DNA of 64,000 bases from Erythrobacter sp. (GTDB lineage: Bacteria > Pseudomonadota > Alphaproteobacteria > Sphingomonadales > Sphingomonadaceae): NCBI GenBank assembly GCA_024642565.1, contig JAHEAV010000007.1:1-64000 (forward strand), written 5' to 3'. The notes below the pieces were generated by a model that saw only the letters and a program-made list of their open reading frames with translations, was not told the origin of the DNA and made no database searches. The position numbers and the translations under genes are program-made. Numbering within the stretch: position 1 is the first letter of the stretch; every line of letters begins with the position of its first letter. Of this stretch, positions 11,106 to 20,084 are shown piece by piece.

Positions 11106-11252
11106 TCGGGCGGCTCTTGCAAGTTCAACAGACGTGCCGCTCTGAACCTGGTTTCAGGTGTAATCAAGTGGGGTCAAGCGGCTGTGATGGCTCGACAAGG
11201 GAAGCAGGACGCGCAATGGTCTGCCTTCACAGGCAAAGCAGGAACAGTAACC

Positions 11253-11711
11253 ATGGCAGGGCGCTTCTTCGACCAATGGCAAGTGGGTGATCGGATCGAG
11301 CATGAGATTCGGCGAACAGTAACCGAAACCGACAATCTGCTGTTTTCGACCATGACCCATAATCCGCAACCGCTCCATCTGGATGCCGAAGCCGCGCGGG
11401 CGAGCGAGTTCGGCCAGATTCTGGTCAACGGGACCTTTACGTTTTCACTGATGGTCGGCCTGTCTGTTGGCGACACTACTTTGGGCACGCTGGTGGCAAA
11501 CCTTGGCTATGACAGACTGGTGATGCCCAAGCCTGTTTTCATCGGCGATACAATGCGCGCCACCAGTGAAGTCACGGAATTGCGCGCTTCAAAATCGCGA
11601 CCGGATGCAGGGATCGTCACTTTCTCACATCAGCTGATCAACCAGCGTGATGAAGTGGTGTGCCAATGTCTGCGTTCAGCCTTACTGAAGCGAGCCGATT
11701 CCTCTGCCTGA
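11253..11711 (+). CDS. MaoC-family dehydratase
   Basis: A 152-aa single hot-dog-fold hydratase. The motif FSTMTHNPQPLHLDAEAA contains the conserved Asn, His and Asp region of (R)-specific enoyl-CoA hydratases, followed by GQILVNGTFTFSLMVGL and PVFIGDTMRA. The ORF track extends upstream to 10518, but that part only mirrors putA; the ATG at 11253 with GGAACAG before it matches the family start. The role is probably in acyl-CoA or mesaconyl/methylsuccinyl-CoA type chemistry; the exact substrate is not visible. It is divergent from putA and 77 bp upstream of the DUF3604 gene. Confidence 0.85.
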   Translation: MAGRFFDQWQVGDRIEHEIRRTVTETDNLLFSTMTHNPQPLHLDAEAARASEFGQILVNGTFTFSLMVGLSVGDTTLGTLVANLGYDRLVMPKPVFIGDTMRATSEVTELRASKSRPDAGIVTFSHQLINQRDEVVCQCLRSALLKRADSSA

Positions 11712-11788: not shown

Positions 11789-13708
11789 ATGGGCCGCAAG
11801 GGTATAATCGTGTCGGTCGCCGCTATTGCGGCCGTCTTAGGGGCTGGAGCATGGTGGTTATCGCAGCCTAAGTCTATCAATCCAGCGGAAGTAGCCGATG
11901 CCGAAAGGGCGGTTACGCCCAGCGAATTTCCCGACCGCCCCTTGTTCGGCGACACCCATCTCCACACGGACAATTCGATCGATGCTTTCGGTTTTGGTGT
12001 CCGTCTTGGACCCGAAGATGCGTTGAAGTTTGCCCGCGGGGACGAAGTTACCTCGACGACGGGAATCAAGGCAAAGCTGGCACGACCACTCGATTTTCTG
12101 GTTATTGCCGATCACAGCGATGGCCTGGGCGCGACGCGCCGCCTCTTCGATGCGCCCCGTCTGCTGATCCGTGATGCGACATTGCGCCGATGGCACGACA
12201 TGATGCATGAATCGCCCCACCAGTCGCAGCGCGCAATTGCCGAACTGATCACTGCGGCGGCCAACAACACGCTGCCGGAAGCCCTTCGCGATCCCGAGCG
12301 GCAGAAGGAGGCAACCAAAACGATCTGGACTGCAGGTTTGGCGATGCTTGATCGTTACTACAAGCCAGGTGTGTTCACACCGATTGCAGGCTTTGAATAC
12401 ACGTTGATGCCAAACGGCAATAATCTCCACCGCGTGGTGATGTTCCGCGACGGGTTCGACCGGACGTCAAAGGTCCTGCCATTTCCTGGCATAGGTGCAG
12501 GCCCGGTCGATGGGCTGTGGGATTACATGGATGCTTATGAGAAGACGACTGGCGGAAAAGTTCTGGCGATCCCGCATAATTCAAACCTGTCCAATGGGCT
12601 GATGTTCGAACTGACTGGGTCTGATGGCGGGCCGATGACCGCCGCATACGCCCGACGCCGCGCCGCGCATGAACCCTTGGTCGAAGCAACCCAGATCAAG
12701 GGCGACAGTGAAACCCACCCTTATCTCTCACCAAACGATGAATTTGCCGGTTTTGGCGTAAAGGGATGGGAATTGGGCAATTTGCCGCTGACCGCAAAAA
12801 CCACCCCGGACATGTTTGCCGGTAATTACCTGCGGGAAGCGTTGAAGCGCGGTCTATCGATCGAGCAGCGTACCGGGGCCAACCCCTATAAATTCGGGAT
12901 GATCGGATCGACCGATAGCCACACGGCACTCGCAACCGGCGACGAGAATAATTTTTTCGGCAAGCACACAGGCAATGAACCAAACAAAGTCCGCGCACTG
13001 GCCCCGCAAAATCTGGGAACACGGGTTGGCCGCTTTGGTTGGAATTACCTTGCCGGGGGTTATGCGGCGGTGTGGGCGCGGGCCAATACGCGCGCTGAAA
13101 TTTTCGACGCGATGATGCGGCGTGAAACCTATTCAACCACTGGCCCGCGTATGGTCGTTCGCTTTTTTGGAGGATATGATTTTGCCGAAAATGCGTTTGA
13201 AGGCGACTGGATACGTAACGGCTATACCAAGGGCGTCCCGATGGGCGGCGAACTTGCCGACAATGGCAAGGCGCCGCATTTCCTGATCTCTGCCCTGATG
13301 GACCCGGATGGTGCCCGGCTGGACCGGGTGCAGGTGATCAAGGGCTGGACCGATGCCAGCGGCAAAACCCAGGAAAAGATCTATGATGTTGTCTGGTCCG
13401 ACATGGATAAACGCCGCGCAGTCAATGGCAAAGTACCGGCAGTCGGAGACACGGTTAACCGGGCCGATGCGACCTACACCAACACAATCGGGGCACCGGA
13501 ATTGCGCAAGGTTTGGACCGACCCCGACTACCGGCCGGGCCAACGGGCTTTTTACTACCTTCGTGTTCTGGAAATTCCTACGCCGCGCTGGCCGCTGTTT
13601 GATGCCGTGCGCTTCGGCTTTGAACTGACGGCTGATGCTATGGCTGATGCCGTCGCGCAGGAGCGCGCTTATACTTCGCCGATCTGGGTGGGGCCCGCGA
13701 AGAGATGA
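11789..13708 (+). CDS. DUF3604 protein, PHP-like metal-binding hydrolase candidate
   Basis: A 639-aa exported or membrane-anchored protein: residues 6-22 form a hydrophobic N-terminal segment (IIVSVAAIAAVLGAGAWWL). The body carries histidine motifs in the order expected for a PHP-like metal hydrolase: GDTHLHTDNSIDA, VIADHSDG, AIPHNSN and GSTDSHTA. This matches DUF3604, whose biochemical role is unknown to me. The start at 11789 follows a strong GGGGGGGAA; the track start at 11660 would overlap the MaoC gene. It overlaps the next gene by 4 bp (ATGA) and heads a three-gene operon with a parvulin-like PPIase and a HupE-like membrane protein. Confidence 0.88.
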   Translation: MGRKGIIVSVAAIAAVLGAGAWWLSQPKSINPAEVADAERAVTPSEFPDRPLFGDTHLHTDNSIDAFGFGVRLGPEDALKFARGDEVTSTTGIKAKLARPLDFLVIADHSDGLGATRRLFDAPRLLIRDATLRRWHDMMHESPHQSQRAIAELITAAANNTLPEALRDPERQKEATKTIWTAGLAMLDRYYKPGVFTPIAGFEYTLMPNGNNLHRVVMFRDGFDRTSKVLPFPGIGAGPVDGLWDYMDAYEKTTGGKVLAIPHNSNLSNGLMFELTGSDGGPMTAAYARRRAAHEPLVEATQIKGDSETHPYLSPNDEFAGFGVKGWELGNLPLTAKTTPDMFAGNYLREALKRGLSIEQRTGANPYKFGMIGSTDSHTALATGDENNFFGKHTGNEPNKVRALAPQNLGTRVGRFGWNYLAGGYAAVWARANTRAEIFDAMMRRETYSTTGPRMVVRFFGGYDFAENAFEGDWIRNGYTKGVPMGGELADNGKAPHFLISALMDPDGARLDRVQVIKGWTDASGKTQEKIYDVVWSDMDKRRAVNGKVPAVGDTVNRADATYTNTIGAPELRKVWTDPDYRPGQRAFYYLRVLEIPTPRWPLFDAVRFGFELTADAMADAVAQERAYTSPIWVGPAKR

Positions 13709-14493
13709 ATTTGCCTTCCTGGGCGCGCGAACCGCTCGTCCACTTTATGATCGGTGGGGCGGCGCTTTTCACCTTTTTTGCCTGGCAGGGAGAACCCGCC
13801 GATCCGGCAAGCCGCACGATTACGGTCACACGAGAAGATCGCGCTCTGTTGGCACTGCAATGGGAACAGACCATGCAGCGCCCACCGACCGATGCCGAAC
13901 TCGACAGTATGGTCGAGACGTTCCTGCGCGAGGAGGTGCTCTATCGCGAAGCTCTTCGCCTCGGTCTCGATCGCGATGATCCGGTGGTACGCAAACGCCT
14001 GGCAAACAAAATGGATTACCTTGCGGCCAGCATGGCCGAAACTGCGCCTGTATCGGATGCCACCTTGCGGCAATATTATGCGGATCATCCCGAACGGTTT
14101 GCCGGTGAGGTTCATTACAGTTTTGACCAGCTCTATTTCGCTGAAAAAGCGGATGCAAAGCGCGCACTGACTGGCCCGAAGTCGGGCCAATCCATATCGC
14201 TTCCCGGCAATTTCACGCGTGCGACACGCGGTGAAATTGCCGGACGCCTGGGCTCGCAATTTGTTGATGCACTCGACAGCGTGGCCGTGGGCAAGGATTG
14301 GGCAGGGCCGCATGCCTCCGGATTTGGTTGGCATTTGATCCGCTTGACGCGCCGCGAAGCGAGCCAGGTTCCACCCTTCGATGATATTCGTGATCAGGTC
14401 GAAGCCGATTGGCGCAGCAGCACCGAGGCTGACCGGCGTGAACAGGCGTACCATGCGTTGCGCGACGCCTATCGGATCAAGATCGCGCGATGA
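13705..14493 (+). CDS. Parvulin-like peptidyl-prolyl isomerase, membrane anchored
   Basis: A 262-aa protein with one N-terminal membrane segment (FMIGGAALFTFFAW), then a SurA/PpiD-like helical chaperone region (LDSMVETFLREEVLYREALRLGL) and a short PPIC-type domain with VHYSFDQLYF and GWHLIRLTRREASQ. It should act in the periplasm on folding of exported proteins. Start and stop both overlap neighbours by 4 bp, so translation is likely coupled to the DUF3604 gene before it and the HupE gene after it. A dedicated folding helper for the DUF3604 enzyme is a reasonable inference. Confidence 0.85.
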   Translation: MNLPSWAREPLVHFMIGGAALFTFFAWQGEPADPASRTITVTREDRALLALQWEQTMQRPPTDAELDSMVETFLREEVLYREALRLGLDRDDPVVRKRLANKMDYLAASMAETAPVSDATLRQYYADHPERFAGEVHYSFDQLYFAEKADAKRALTGPKSGQSISLPGNFTRATRGEIAGRLGSQFVDALDSVAVGKDWAGPHASGFGWHLIRLTRREASQVPPFDDIRDQVEADWRSSTEADRREQAYHALRDAYRIKIAR

Positions 14494-15470
14494 AATTGCT
14501 GATCGCTGTGCTGGCCACAATGTTGCTCAGTCCTTCTGCCGCATGGGCCGATGAACTGCGGCCGGGCTATCTTGAATTGACCGAACAGCAGGCTGGACAG
14601 TGGCATGTAGGCTGGAAGTTGCCACTTGCCGCGCCGCCAGTGGGCGCAATCAATCCTCCGCAATTGCCGGCCAATTGCCGCTTTGATCCGGATGTTAAGA
14701 GCGGCGTGGTCGGAGGGGCAATCGTGGGCAGTGCCAGCGCGCATTGCCGTGGCTCCATGATTGGTGGGAAAATCGCTATGCCTGCCTTGTCTGGGCAGGG
14801 CGATATGCTTGTTCGCGTTCAGCCGCTTGAACAACCAATGCAGACATTACGGCTGACTTCCGCGCAACCATCCGCGGAAATTCTGGCGGCACCTGCTGTG
14901 ACACAGGTCTGGCGCAGTTATTTCCGTATCGGTGTTGAGCATATTCTGGCCGGCTGGGACCACCTGCTTTTTGTTATCGCGCTGGTACTGCTGCTACGGC
15001 GGTGGCGCCCGGTGGTACTTGCGGCGACGGCGTTCACCGTTGCTCATTCATTCACTCTCGCCGGTGCTGCGCTGGGTTGGTTATCGCTGCCGCAGCGACC
15101 GGTAGAAGCGTTAATCGCGCTGTCGATCCTGTTTCTGTCGCTTGAAATTATGCGAAAGCCTGACGAAAGGACTAGCCTCACGGTCCGATACCCCTGGGTG
15201 ATCGCGTTTCTGTTTGGCCTGCTTCACGGATTTGGCTTTGCCAGTGCGCTTGCCGCGATTGGCCTGCCCGAAGGGGACATTGTCCCGGCCTTACTAACCT
15301 TCAATCTCGGGGTCGAAGCTGGACAATTATGCATAATCGCGGCGGTGCTGACCGCGATCTTCTTTATCCGGACAATGTCAAAACACGCGCTAGTGCCCAT
15401 GATTCGCATCGCGACCTATGCCATCGGCATCACCGCATCTTATTGGCTGTTTGCGCGCATCGTGGTTTGA
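14490..15470 (+). CDS. HupE/UreJ-family membrane protein
   Basis: A 326-aa protein: signal peptide (ending SAAWA), a periplasmic beta-rich part to about residue 140, then about seven membrane helices. The membrane part starts with VEHILAGWDHLLFVIALVLL, the HupE/UreJ signature H-x4-G-x-D-H, and has HSFTLAGA and FGLLHGFGFASAL with conserved histidines. HupE/UreJ relatives are nickel or cobalt permeases, but this longer branch is of unknown specificity. It is the last gene of the DUF3604 operon, overlapping the parvulin gene by 4 bp. It converges with the outer-membrane factor gene, with a 31-bp overlap of the coding ends. Confidence 0.85.
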   Translation: MKLLIAVLATMLLSPSAAWADELRPGYLELTEQQAGQWHVGWKLPLAAPPVGAINPPQLPANCRFDPDVKSGVVGGAIVGSASAHCRGSMIGGKIAMPALSGQGDMLVRVQPLEQPMQTLRLTSAQPSAEILAAPAVTQVWRSYFRIGVEHILAGWDHLLFVIALVLLLRRWRPVVLAATAFTVAHSFTLAGAALGWLSLPQRPVEALIALSILFLSLEIMRKPDERTSLTVRYPWVIAFLFGLLHGFGFASALAAIGLPEGDIVPALLTFNLGVEAGQLCIIAAVLTAIFFIRTMSKHALVPMIRIATYAIGITASYWLFARIVV

Positions 15471-16867
15471 TCGCCGCCGAGGGATTGCCACAGGATTACT
15501 CGCGCCCGTTCGGCAGCGCCCCGCGCCGCCGCCACCCGTTCACCCGAAGCATCGGCGTTGCGCCGGGCATCCAGCACAGTGAGAAAATCCGACAAGCCAG
15601 CGCGGTAACGCACATCGGCCAGCCGCGCGGCACGTTCGTTTGCCATGCGCTCACGTTCGGTCACCGAAAGCGCATTGTCGGTTGCGGCGACTAATCCGTA
15701 GGCAGCTTCGGCATCGCCCAGCGCAGCGAAAACCGTGCCGCGATAGGTTTCGAATGCGATCCGCTTGTCAGCTTCGGCGCTGTCGATTTCCGCCGCGATC
15801 CGCCCGAAATCGAGTAGCGGGGCGAGGAGTGAACCGCCGACTGATCCGACGACCGAGTCTGTGTCGAACAGGCTGCCCAGATCAAAGGCAAGAAGCCCAA
15901 GCGTGGCCGAAAGGCTGAATTTCGGAAAGCGCCGCGCAGCCGCGGCGTAAAGGTCGGAATCGCTAGCGGCCAGCCGGGCAGCGGCCGCAAGTACATCGGG
16001 CCGGTTGGCCAGCAGGTCTGACGGCACGCTGGCCGGTGCAGCAATCTGCGCAAGGTCGCCAGCGGGTTGTTCCAAGGCGGCACGCACCTTCTGCGCCGAT
16101 TGCCCGGTGAGAGTAACCAGCCGCCCGATTAATTGCGCTCTGGCGCCGGGCAAAGCCGCGATTCGGCCTCGGCTGGCTTCGGCTGTGGCTTCGGCACGGA
16201 CCCGGTCGAAATCCGGTGCGATGCCGGAGCGTTCGCGGATTTCGGCCAATGTCACCAGGGTTTCAGCCGCGATCACATCCTCTTCAAGCGCGGCTTGGCG
16301 TGCATCAAGTGTCCGCCAATCAATTACGCTGGCCGCCACTTCGGCAACCAGCGCCAGCCGCACACCAGCCGCATCGGCACCCGCAGCATCAATCCGTGCA
16401 ATGGCGGCGCGTTCCTGCGCGCGCAACTGACCGAACAGATCCGGGTCCCAAGCCGCGACAAGGCTGGTTCCAAAGCTGACCCGTTCGGTATCAAGGGTAA
16501 CAGTCGGAGGAAGACTGGCACCCAATTGCCGGGGATTGGTGCGTGTCCCTGTGACGGATGCGTTTGCGCTGACTTGCGGGAAGCGCTGGGAACTTGCCCC
16601 GCTCGCGGCGGCGCGCGCCCGATCGATGCGGGCCAGCGCAACCGCCAGTGTTGGCGCGTCAGCCAAGGCCAGTTGCGCAAGGTCGGCATAGGCAGGATCA
16701 TTGCTTGGCAAAAGTGTTGCCAGATTGCCCGATGTCGCTGCGTCGGCTGCAAAGGCGAAGTCCTGCGGCAGGGCTGGCGGTGATGTGTCAATATCGGCAG
16801 GCGGCCCTGCCACGCAACCGGCCAAGGCTAGGGCTCCGCAGGCTACAAGCAGGTTTGTGCGGTTCAT
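15440..16867 (-). CDS. Outer-membrane factor lipoprotein (NodT/OprM, TolC-like)
   Basis: A 475-aa lipoprotein with lipobox LALAGC (Cys about 18). It contains two OEP repeats rich in Ala/Leu coiled coil, with FGTSLVAAWDPDLFGQLRAQ and LLANRPDVLAAAARLAAS as typical NodT-family wording. It forms the outer-membrane duct for a tripartite exporter. Its start overlaps the stop of the HlyD-like adaptor by 4 bp, so it belongs to the ABC exporter operon running from 19760 down to 15440. Its 3' end overlaps the convergent HupE gene by 31 bp. Confidence 0.92.
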   Translation of the reverse strand: MNRTNLLVACGALALAGCVAGPPADIDTSPPALPQDFAFAADAATSGNLATLLPSNDPAYADLAQLALADAPTLAVALARIDRARAAASGASSQRFPQVSANASVTGTRTNPRQLGASLPPTVTLDTERVSFGTSLVAAWDPDLFGQLRAQERAAIARIDAAGADAAGVRLALVAEVAASVIDWRTLDARQAALEEDVIAAETLVTLAEIRERSGIAPDFDRVRAEATAEASRGRIAALPGARAQLIGRLVTLTGQSAQKVRAALEQPAGDLAQIAAPASVPSDLLANRPDVLAAAARLAASDSDLYAAAARRFPKFSLSATLGLLAFDLGSLFDTDSVVGSVGGSLLAPLLDFGRIAAEIDSAEADKRIAFETYRGTVFAALGDAEAAYGLVAATDNALSVTERERMANERAARLADVRYRAGLSDFLTVLDARRNADASGERVAAARGAAERARVILWQSLGGDQTTMRANSQ

Positions 16868-17901
16868 TCCTTGACGCCTTCCTCGGCGGGCTTTGGCTTG
16901 ACGGCATTGGTCCGCTTGGTGACCATCTTTGCCGGGATAAAGGCATCGACTTGCTGCCCTGTACGGAATCGTATCCCGTCGGCCGGCAATTCATAAAGCA
17001 CTTGAAGAACACGCACATCGACCCGTTCGCTGGCGCTGTTTGTCAACGACCGTTTGGGCGTGATCTGCGGTTCGGCGCGAACGAATTTGGCTTTTACCTG
17101 CTGGCCAGAAGCGCCGCGCGGGCTGACGGTTGCGGATTTCCCCAAATCCAGTCGCACCGCCTCGTCTTCGTCGATATCGATCCGGACATATAGCGGCCTT
17201 GTCTCACCCAATTCGATATAGGGTTCGGCATTACTGCCTTGGGGTCTGCCGGCCTGCACGAATTCGCCAGGGCGGATATTCACAGCAAGAATTTCACCGC
17301 CAATGGGTGCGCGAACTGTCAGTTTGCCAAGTTCGGTCTGTGCAGTTCCAGCCACAGCTTCGGCGGATACGAGCTGGGCATGGGCGAGTGCCAGCCGGTT
17401 GCGAGCAGCTTCGGCATCGCCTTCAGCGCGGATCACTTCGGACCTTGAAACGGCAGCGGCATCTTCGATCTTGCGGTAAAGCTCAAGCTGCCGCGACGCG
17501 GTGTTGCTAGCGGCACTGGCCTCGGCAATGGCTGCCTTCGCCTGGGCAATGGCCGCAGACGCTTCGTTAAGTCGCGCCCGCGTTGACCGGTCATCGACGG
17601 TGAACAGTGGTTGGCCACCTGCGACATAGTCGCCCGGACGGACAAATACCTTCATTACAAGGCCAGATACTGAGGTGCCCAGATCGACTATCTCGCTGGA
17701 CGGCTCGACAACCCCTGATCCGGCAACCCGCGGCGCATCAGCAAGCGTACCTGTGGCGTGCGCAGGCAATTCCACCGGGTCGTCCAAGGACCGATCGGGT
17801 TTACCACTGAATATGAGATAGATCGCGAGCAACAGGCCGATAACAGCCAGCACCGGCAAAGCCCGTCTCGAAAAACTCCATCCCTTTGGCGCGTTCGCCA
17901 T
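16864..17901 (-). CDS. HlyD/DevB-type periplasmic adaptor
   Basis: A 345-aa membrane fusion protein: one N-terminal membrane helix (VLAVIGLLLAIYLIFSG), two halves of a lipoyl/biotinyl-like domain (GLVMKVFVRPGDYVAGGQPL and TVRAPIGGEILAVNIRPGE), and between them a coiled-coil hairpin of about 90 aa. It links the inner-membrane ABC pump to the outer-membrane factor. It lies 3 bp downstream of the ATPase gene and overlaps the outer-membrane factor gene by 4 bp. The four-gene order permease-ATPase-adaptor-OMF recalls DevBCA-TolC exporters. Confidence 0.9.
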   Translation of the reverse strand: MANAPKGWSFSRRALPVLAVIGLLLAIYLIFSGKPDRSLDDPVELPAHATGTLADAPRVAGSGVVEPSSEIVDLGTSVSGLVMKVFVRPGDYVAGGQPLFTVDDRSTRARLNEASAAIAQAKAAIAEASAASNTASRQLELYRKIEDAAAVSRSEVIRAEGDAEAARNRLALAHAQLVSAEAVAGTAQTELGKLTVRAPIGGEILAVNIRPGEFVQAGRPQGSNAEPYIELGETRPLYVRIDIDEDEAVRLDLGKSATVSPRGASGQQVKAKFVRAEPQITPKRSLTNSASERVDVRVLQVLYELPADGIRFRTGQQVDAFIPAKMVTKRTNAVKPKPAEEGVKE

Positions 17902-17904
17902 GGT

Positions 17905-18624
17905 TTATCCTTCCTGCGACAAATTTGTGCCATCACGGGTAATTCGTCCGTCATCCAGCGTGAGGATGCGGTCGGCCAAGTCAAAAATTCGGTTGTCATG
18001 GGTAACGATGATGACCGAACGGTTCTCCGCCACGGCCACTTCGCGCAGCAAATCCATTACCCGGCGCCCGGAACGTGCGTCCAGCGCCGCGGTCGGCTCA
18101 TCGCATACCACCAGCCGCGGCCCATGGACCAGCGCGCGGGCGATGGCGACACGCTGCTGCTGTCCGCCTGAAAGCGTGGAGGGCAGCTTGCCCGCCTGAT
18201 CGGCAATATTGAGCTTCTCCAACATGTCGCAGGCGATCTCGCGCGCTTCGCTGCGCTTCATGCCCCTTGCCATCAGCGGGACTGCGGCGTTGGATGCCGC
18301 ATCGATCGTCGGGATCAAATTATATTGCTGGAAAATGAAGCCGATGTTGGCGAGGCGGAATTTGACCAATTCCGTGTCATCCAATGCATAGATGTCCTGA
18401 CCAAAAACGTGCACTTCCCCGATAGTGGGCCACAGGATTCCCGCGATGATTGAAATCAGCGTGGTCTTCCCGGATCCGGATTCGCCAACCAGATAGGTCA
18501 GTTCTCCCGATTGCACATCGATATCGATGTCGTGCAGGACCCGGATCGTGTTTTGCCCCGCCTGAAAATCGCGCGAGACATTGCGAACCCTTATCGCAAC
18601 CTTGCTGTCCACCGCGCCGATCAT
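17905..18624 (-). CDS. ABC transporter ATP-binding protein (MacB/DevA/LolD-like)
   Basis: A 239-aa nucleotide-binding subunit with Walker A GESGSGKTT, Q-loop NIGFIFQQYNLIP, ABC signature LSGGQQQRVAIARAL, Walker B RLVVCDEPTAALD and switch His in VTHD. This belongs to the LolD/MacB/DevA class that energises lipoprotein, macrolide or glycolipid export. The track ORF is longer, but the ATG at 18624 overlaps the permease stop by 4 bp (ATGA), which fits translational coupling. It works with the permease upstream and the adaptor downstream. Confidence 0.93.
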   Translation of the reverse strand: MIGAVDSKVAIRVRNVSRDFQAGQNTIRVLHDIDIDVQSGELTYLVGESGSGKTTLISIIAGILWPTIGEVHVFGQDIYALDDTELVKFRLANIGFIFQQYNLIPTIDAASNAAVPLMARGMKRSEAREIACDMLEKLNIADQAGKLPSTLSGGQQQRVAIARALVHGPRLVVCDEPTAALDARSGRRVMDLLREVAVAENRSVIIVTHDNRIFDLADRILTLDDGRITRDGTNLSQEG

Positions 18625-19760
18625 CGGAAAACCTCCGCCGGTTCGGTCTTCATGACGCTGCGCAGCGCCAGCCAGCCGGTCATTGCCAGAATGATGATGA
18701 CCGGGATCAGGCAGATCAAGGGTATCTGCCAAGGCGAATAGAAGCCCTTGAATTCGGGTTTGATTTTCTCAAACCAGTAAATAAACACCACGGATCCAAG
18801 GATGCCGAAGGCATAACCGATCGAGCCGACTATGGCGGCCTGAGTCGCAACCATGCCGGCAATCTTGCGGTTGGTAACGCCGATGGCCTTCAGGGCGCCA
18901 AATTGTTTGATATTGTCGCGAATGAAAAGACTGAAGGTCAAACCGACGATCGCGACGCCGACAATAAATCCCAGCGCAACAGTAATCCCGAAATTGAACG
19001 GAATGCCGGTATTGGCAATCACGAACATGATCCCGTCATACGCAAATTCGTCGCGCGTGCGGGTTTTCCAACCCGTCTGATCGGCGATCCTTTTGGCCAG
19101 CACTTCCGGTGTTACGCCGTCTTGAGCGCGCGCCAGCACAAAGCTCAGCCGGTTTCGCGTGCCCGGGACATAGGAAAGTGCGCGCGAATAACGCGTGTAG
19201 AGAAACACCTGACTGGTAAATGTGGGTGTGGCATCGACCACGCCGCGAATGATCGCGCGCTGGTCGTTCATTTCCAACCGCTGGCCCACGGGATTGACCC
19301 CGACGCCAAACATTCTCCCGGCGCCAACATCGTCAATGATAACCGCATCGGGTTCTGCCAGAACGCTGGCAGTGCCATAGACCATCTTGTGTGGCAGGCC
19401 GATTAGCGTGGTATCGTCAACTCCGACAATTGCCACGCCTTCAAGATCGCCATCGGCTGAGCGAACTGAGGCTGCGGACCTGAGATGTGGCACCGCCCAG
19501 GCAACCCCGGGCACGGAGCGGACTTCGTCCAACGCGGTTTCTGGCATGGCGAAGTTGACTTCGGGTGTGCGGGTAACCGGATCCATTACCCATACATCGG
19601 CTGAATATTCATTGTAGACAGCATTGGCGCCGCGCTGCACCAGATTGACCAGAATGGTCATCTGCTGGGCAATCAACAGCGTCGAAAAGGCGATGCCGAA
19701 CACCAGCCCATAGAATTTCGTCCGGTCGCCAGTAAGCATCCGGATCGCGATCCAGTTCAT
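18621..19760 (-). CDS. ABC transporter permease (DevC/FtsX-like)
   Basis: A 379-aa inner-membrane subunit with one N-terminal helix (FYGLVFGIAFSTLLIAQQ), a periplasmic MacB-like domain of about 220 aa, and three C-terminal helices in an FtsX domain that includes IKQFGALKAIGVTNRKI. This is the DevC/MacB topology. The start at 19760 is chosen because GGAGGG lies 7 bp upstream; the track ATG 21 bp earlier has no such site. It is the first gene of the exporter operon. The cargo is not shown by sequence; DevBCA relatives export glycolipids and MacB relatives export small amphiphiles or peptides. Confidence 0.9.
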   Translation of the reverse strand: MNWIAIRMLTGDRTKFYGLVFGIAFSTLLIAQQMTILVNLVQRGANAVYNEYSADVWVMDPVTRTPEVNFAMPETALDEVRSVPGVAWAVPHLRSAASVRSADGDLEGVAIVGVDDTTLIGLPHKMVYGTASVLAEPDAVIIDDVGAGRMFGVGVNPVGQRLEMNDQRAIIRGVVDATPTFTSQVFLYTRYSRALSYVPGTRNRLSFVLARAQDGVTPEVLAKRIADQTGWKTRTRDEFAYDGIMFVIANTGIPFNFGITVALGFIVGVAIVGLTFSLFIRDNIKQFGALKAIGVTNRKIAGMVATQAAIVGSIGYAFGILGSVVFIYWFEKIKPEFKGFYSPWQIPLICLIPVIIILAMTGWLALRSVMKTEPAEVFR

Positions 19761-20084
19761 TGCAAACCCTCCGGCGCCCAACTGAACCGACCTGCCGGAA
19801 CCGTTGAAACGCCCATCCCTGATTGTCGCGCGCGACCGATTGTGTTCTTGAAAATGTGCGACAACTGAGACTCGATAGCGAATCCACCTCCTATGTCAAA
19901 GGGATAAGCTTAGCTCTGAAAGTGAGCCTGCTGCGGCGCGCGCGAATGGCTGCCGGCACAATCTGCCCTGCCAGAGTGCGCTTTCAGCCGGGTAGAACGG
20001 CCCAATTGTTCACCCTTGCCGCGTTAGCTTGCCATTCACTTTGTTGTCCCCATATTGTCACCACATGAAAGGACGGATTCGTCG
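19761..20084. other. Intergenic region between ABC exporter operon and ftsH
   Basis: 324 bp with divergent genes on either side. It holds the GGAGGG ribosome site of the permease gene at its left edge and the heat-shock-like promoter of ftsH at 20028-20056. The short ORF at 19823-20068 has no ribosome site or protein-like composition, and I treat it as chance. I see nothing else. Confidence 0.5.
20028..20056 (+). promoter_or_regulatory. Sigma-32 (RpoH)-type promoter of ftsH
   Basis: CTTGCC at 20028-20033, 14 bp, then CCCCATATT at 20048-20056. This fits the RpoH consensus (CTTG, 13-17 bp, CCCCATnT). Predicted start of transcription is near 20063, about 20 nt before the ftsH ATG. FtsH is a known heat-shock gene in proteobacteria. 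Confidence 0.65.

Follow-up and report, generated by a model that had tools for sequence, protein, structure and literature searches.

A three-gene operon on the forward strand of a 64,000-nucleotide stretch of an Erythrobacter sp. genome (contig JAHEAV010000007.1, positions 1 to 64,000; hereafter the window) encodes a DUF3604 protein, a parvulin-like protein and a HupE_UreJ_2 protein, abbreviated here as D, P and H, and we propose, with about even confidence, that it is a dedicated exoenzyme-maturation operon, in which P and H fold and metal-load the exported PHP metallohydrolase D. According to this proposal, D would be a Sec-exported, membrane-tethered PHP metallohydrolase, of the phosphoester- or carbamate-type by family, and P and H would be its translationally coupled helpers. 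P, a membrane-anchored parvulin-like chaperone, would keep exported D open or fold it, so that its site fills with the right metal, and H, a HupE/UreJ-type metal transporter, would hold a divalent metal on the outer side of the membrane, or pass it on there, through the free-amine His or Asp of its exported domain. The proposal draws on computed gene content, gene coupling, recurrence across phyla, export signals, the PHP ligands and fold of D, the ionisable residues of H and a surplus of D genes over P-H pairs. The original prediction, made from the letters of the window, had guessed at a metal-dependent hydrolase in the periplasm, served by a chaperone and a metal or substrate channel of its own, and this, with the channel taken as one for metal, is retained as the best reading overall, with no sign of nickel use; the three open reading frames lie where it had placed them and overlap as it had described (Table 1).

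The association of the three families was queried class-wide by searching 289 genomes for DUF3604 and HupE_UreJ_2, fetching ∼100 regions and labelling their genes with iterated profiles, of which the P profile isolated one clear subfamily (100–340 bits versus 50–80 bits for generic parvulins). D and the P subfamily were found together in 26 genomes, P only in two, D only in three and neither in 258 (Fisher p = 1.8e-31, the genomes being related and not independent). One of the P-only genomes carries just a second PHP subfamily and the other just weak or partial matches, and in two of the three D-only genomes D consists of fragments. Within the class the trio occurs repeatedly, with D in tandem copies at some loci and in divergent or convergent orientation to P-H at others. 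Scanning of named genomes yielded 80 loci with D, 41 of which have P and H near it; among the 55 having at least 2.5 kb on each side, 34 have both P and H, a lower bound as the gene caller missed some P. The trio loci span about ten phyla in several gene orders, and the isolates carrying the trio include Microseira wollei (order P-H-D), Xanthomarina spongicola, Haloferula rosea, Mesorhizobium, Ensifer and Microvirga. Thus, the three families, whose adjacency elsewhere had been left as a question, are neighbours in many other genomes, and such recurrence over about ten phyla makes a single machine the probable reading.

Of 78 P-H pairs, 55 had an exact 4-bp overlap, whereas the D-P spacing was variable, so P-H can be regarded as a tight unit with D as its partner. 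Four strong D genes were counted per one strong P-H pair in three genomes (G009, G143 and G091), which would fit P-H as a helper of the enzymes. In addition, a second exported PHP subfamily (∼740–775 amino acids), with weak DUF3604 and CehA/McbA matches, has its own P-H pair, hence P-H is linked with the PHP active site and not with a single enzyme family, and it resembles an accessory set that serves PHP enzymes after export. The HupE proteins at the second-subfamily loci (L105:3826-8096, L107, L108, L111-L114 and L116) are longer (∼400–440 amino acids) and begin with His.

D matched DUF3604 at 784.5 bits (Pfam; cut-off 20.4) over model positions 3–591 of 591, while neither D nor H had a match below E 0.001 in the NCBIfam scan. 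The window D has a hydrophobic N-terminal stretch at residues ∼5–24, and since such a stretch occurs in 142 of 147 D proteins and a lipobox-like motif in 38 of the 147, D is predicted to be exported and often anchored. Twelve residues (H57, H59, D65, D102, D108, H109, E203, H214, H263, E299, D376 and H378) were unchanged in all 26 aligned divergent D sequences, an alignment that takes in three second-subfamily members at 22–24% identity; the HxH, ADH, HN and DSH motifs picked out in the original prediction were all located and are invariant in these relatives. Some PHP proteins, with YcdX as the comparison, have a third His where D has D65. An AlphaFold2 model of D was confidently predicted (predicted local distance difference test, pLDDT, 88; predicted template modelling score 0.89), and its best solved match in Foldseek was the PHP domain of RNase AM (7ug9; E 1.5e-3, probability 1.00, template modelling score by target 0.49), a good but remote match at the level of the model. 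Sequence searches for solved relatives of D or H found none, and the C-terminal β-sandwich of D resembled immunoglobulin-like and RhoGDI-like folds weakly in Foldseek. Judged from the alignment and the model, D belongs to the PHP type and has a complete putative metal-ligand set; as to the formed metal site, on which the original prediction had been made to depend, all ligands are invariant on a confidently predicted PHP-like fold, so that this refuting condition did not apply.

P has a PpiC-type domain, matching Rotamase_2 at 55.9 bits (Pfam; cut-off 27), and its NCBIfam matches were to parvulins only, all below cut-off. PrsA is a parvulin-type foldase, and the solved relatives of P reached by sequence were SurA/PrsA-type matches, marginal only. 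A conserved N-terminal hydrophobic stretch with the consensus REPLxHFxxxG is shared by the P family and is probably a single membrane anchor; that of the window P scores under the hydropathy cut-off of 1.6. The alignment of P retains GxH (G208 and H210, as GWH), and the GGDLGW-type segment and the first-strand His are not recognisable, so that the parvulin motif region appears degenerate, with a presumably weakened isomerase site. The holding role given here to P is our own suggestion.

H matched HupE_UreJ_2 at 169.5 bits (Pfam; cut-off 24.5), and its AlphaFold2 model (pLDDT 90.6) comprises a signal helix, a β-sandwich (strands at 26–130) and then 6–7 long helices. Across the 78 H proteins linked to P, residues H151, D157, H158, H186, E206, E219, H246, N272 and E276, including the HxxxGxDH motif, are kept at 94–100%, and these conserved His, Asp and Glu would fit what is expected of a metal path. 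With the cleavage site predicted from the AxA signal-peptidase motif only, the residue following it in the 78 proteins was His in 60, Asp in 18 and no other; Asp occurs in the window and its sphingomonad relatives, and at least seven changes between His and Asp are needed on the tree. The N-terminal His of the related Ang-1 domains is reported to bind Cu2+ and Ni2+ and was called 100% conserved (PMC12537917). The His/Asp alternation corrects this claim of full conservation, and suggests a metal-ligand role for the first residue. As its first residue is Asp, not His, the window H is not classed as Ang-1, though it may work alike. Concerning the folding helper and HupE/UreJ-like protein of the original prediction, both families were matched, and what needs amendment is the parvulin motif, which appears degenerate, and the usual N-terminal His of this HupE type, which is Asp.

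Searches with H for structural relatives gave little: its profile reached no anglerase structure among the solved structures, and Foldseek on its model returned only generic or weak matches. Residues ∼137–325 of the model matched chain 7xzi_A of the Chlamydomonas TOC-TIC supercomplex (probability 0.99, E 0.042), which may be chance. Short HupE_UreJ_2 proteins (204–349 amino acids) were also seen in other contexts with no parvulin partner (L117, L118, L120-L122 and L044).

A precedent for such a maturation system exists in Bacillus subtilis, where the TerC transporters MeeF and MeeY metalate exported Mn enzymes, e.g. LtaS, and co-purify with PrsA (PMC10550928). By analogy, the best-supported reading is that D-P-H follows the TerC logic in a dedicated operon, in which H would supply or hold the metal, P would keep the enzyme loadable and D would be the client. 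More tentatively, and as the less likely case to our mind, the trio could be a hitherto undescribed, cross-phylum dedicated metallation-and-folding machine for exported PHP metalloenzymes, in which the free and repeatedly interchanging N-terminal His/Asp of H passes the metal to a client held by P. Several points weigh against the maturation proposal. Neither P nor H was nearby in 13 of the 55 D loci of named genomes that have at least 2.5 kb on each side, and D was present with P and H undetected in one genome (G052), so some D may mature without P-H or via distant copies; D-P without an adjacent H was found in two ∼1.4 Mb genomes (G270, i.e. L104, and G174:C2:757-3423). Comparison of H with the TerC membrane domain by hhalign yielded a probability of 26%, with E 7e-4 in one comparison, and the published view of anglerase-HupE proteins is metal capture for import, not exoenzyme loading (PMC12537917). 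Furthermore, that H moves metal, with its direction and identity, that P touches and acts on D and that metal loading is their joint purpose are what we infer. The two ∼1.4 Mb genomes also hold a second PHP-P-H set.

The coordinates of the operon and of its predicted sites are collected in Table 1. D was taken to start at the ATG at 11789, just upstream of which lies the purine-rich AGGGGGGGAA, and an in-frame GTG at 11660 is a possible alternative start. H is the last gene of the operon, its 3′-end overlapping a convergent efflux gene by 31 bp, and scanning of the locus for promoters and terminators gave signals at chance level, which were not used.

Table 1. Features of the D-P-H operon in the window (positions count from the first nucleotide of the window).
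Feature	Position	Strand	Description
Gene D	11789..13708	+	639 amino acids; DUF3604 (PF12228); N-terminal membrane anchor or signal, PHP-like domain, C-terminal β-sandwich
PHP motif I, H57-x-H59 and D65 (HLHTDNSID)	11957..11983	+	Invariant, 26 sequences (divergent second subfamily included)
PHP motif II, D108-H109 (ADH)	12110..12115	+	Invariant, 26 sequences
E203 and H214 (GFEYT ... NLHR), part of PHP motif III	12395..12430	+	Invariant, 26 sequences
H263 (IPHN; PHN motif)	12575..12577	+	Invariant, 26 sequences
PHP motif IV, D376-x-H378 (TDSH)	12914..12922	+	Invariant, 26 sequences
D-P overlap	13705..13708	+	4 bp, ATGA
Gene P	13705..14493	+	262 amino acids; hydrophobic N-terminal stretch EPLVHFMIGGAALFTFFAW, SurA-N-like helical region, degenerate PpiC-type domain
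P-H overlap	14490..14493	+	4 bp, ATGA
Gene H	14490..15470	+	326 amino acids; HupE_UreJ_2 (PF13795); signal peptide, β-sandwich domain, 6–7 transmembrane helices
Predicted first mature residue of H, Asp21 (AWA/DELRPGYLEL)	14550..14552	+	Mostly His in relatives

Flanking the operon, a convergent efflux set at 15440–19781 comprises an outer membrane factor, an HlyD-type adaptor and then genes assigned as ABC-type by size and position, and this set also adjoins the trio in close relatives (L046, L135-L137 and L139). Directly upstream of D on the same strand lies a MaoC-like hydratase gene (11205–11711), which is found near D, at 75–85% identity, in five close relatives only; it adjoins D in L046, L135 and L136, is one gene off in L138 and L139, and was not seen there beyond the close relatives.

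The main rival is uptake of something that D releases. D would hydrolyse an organic compound, phosphate- or chelator-like, outside the inner membrane, H would import the freed metal or small product and P would be a general folding aid. We judge this unlikely, while noting that the HupE family is known for nickel import and that angling metal for uptake has been proposed as the task of Ang-1 domains (PMC12537917). A Pfam scan of 87 close co-directional neighbours included a few genes congenial to scavenging, namely TonB receptors (4 of 87), sulfatases (4) and alkylsulfatases (2), but the neighbours are diverse and mostly unrelated, with 104 families of which none is dominant; besides, one P-H pair may accompany four D genes, and neither urease nor NiFe hydrogenase is enriched among the genomes with P-H (see below). 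A fourth core component or a pathway was rejected on the same scan, no family dominating the 87 neighbours, and the earlier statement that no pathway could be named holds, in that the scan assigned no pathway or substrate either.

An envelope or stress module, in which D would serve as a phosphodiesterase for polymers of the envelope or the extracellular space (nucleic acid, teichoic-like or lipid-linked phosphates) and P and H would form a membrane complex positioning it, is improbable: the RNase AM PHP domain being the closest fold to D and the anchored or lipoprotein character of D speak for it, but no polymer-biosynthesis neighbour recurred. The classical role, nickel import by H on behalf of urease or hydrogenase, with the adjacent genes there incidentally, has in its favour the family name and the HupE precedent (reference in PMC12537917), and we regard it as very unlikely because a search of the window genome (100% complete) found neither a urease alpha subunit nor a NiFe hydrogenase. 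Over the 289 genomes there was no association either, urease being present in 7 of 28 P-positive versus 72 of 261 other genomes (p = 1) and NiFe hydrogenase in none of 28 versus 9 of 261, and the neighbours of H are conserved across phyla; nickel supply for these enzymes was rejected as an explanation. Least probable of all, unrelated genes kept together in some lineages by chance or inheritance would account for D without P-H at some loci, but this is refuted by recurrence in about ten phyla with differing gene orders, by the locus counts and co-occurrence statistics, and by the independent P-H pair of the second PHP subfamily.

The open literature, to which the search was confined (subscription journals outside its scope), contained nothing on the D-P-H trio and a single passing mention of DUF3604, in a transposon hit list, with PF12228 not mentioned; anglerases were named in a single paper. 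The three families were already known; what appears to be new is their combination, how widely it occurs and the His/Asp first residue. Correct metal loading of exported enzymes outside the cytosol is an open question, to which the TerC work is among the few known answers. If the maturation proposal is true, the question would become testable with three genes, a client enzyme family being paired with a metal-transporter-like protein and a foldase of its own; DUF3604 would gain a function, and many ‘HupE/UreJ’ annotations would be reassigned away from nickel enzymes.

Compared with known systems, D shares the HxH, DH, E, H and DxH ligands and the fold of the PHP metallohydrolases (RNase AM/TrpH, YcdX and CehA/McbA), and differs from them in that full-length DUF3604 is predicted to be exported and has an additional C-terminal β-sandwich. 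Like the SurA, PrsA and PpiD chaperones, P has a SurA-N-like region, a PpiC-type domain and a probable membrane tether, whereas it forms a separate HupE-tied subfamily with the parvulin motif apparently lost in part. H resembles the Ang-1/HupE-UreJ-2 anglerases (PF13795; PMC12537917) in its signal peptide, exported β-sandwich and C-terminal HupE_UreJ_2 membrane domain, and in a first residue that is also of the metal-ligand type; it differs in that the window H begins with Asp rather than His, and in being paired with P and D, an association absent from the main text of PMC12537917. The MeeF/MeeY-LtaS-PrsA system of TerC combines, as proposed for D-P-H, a multi-helix metal transporter for exported enzymes with a parvulin-type foldase, which co-purifies in the TerC case, but it is not in an operon with its client, and that client is a Mn-dependent lipoteichoic acid synthase, not a PHP enzyme.

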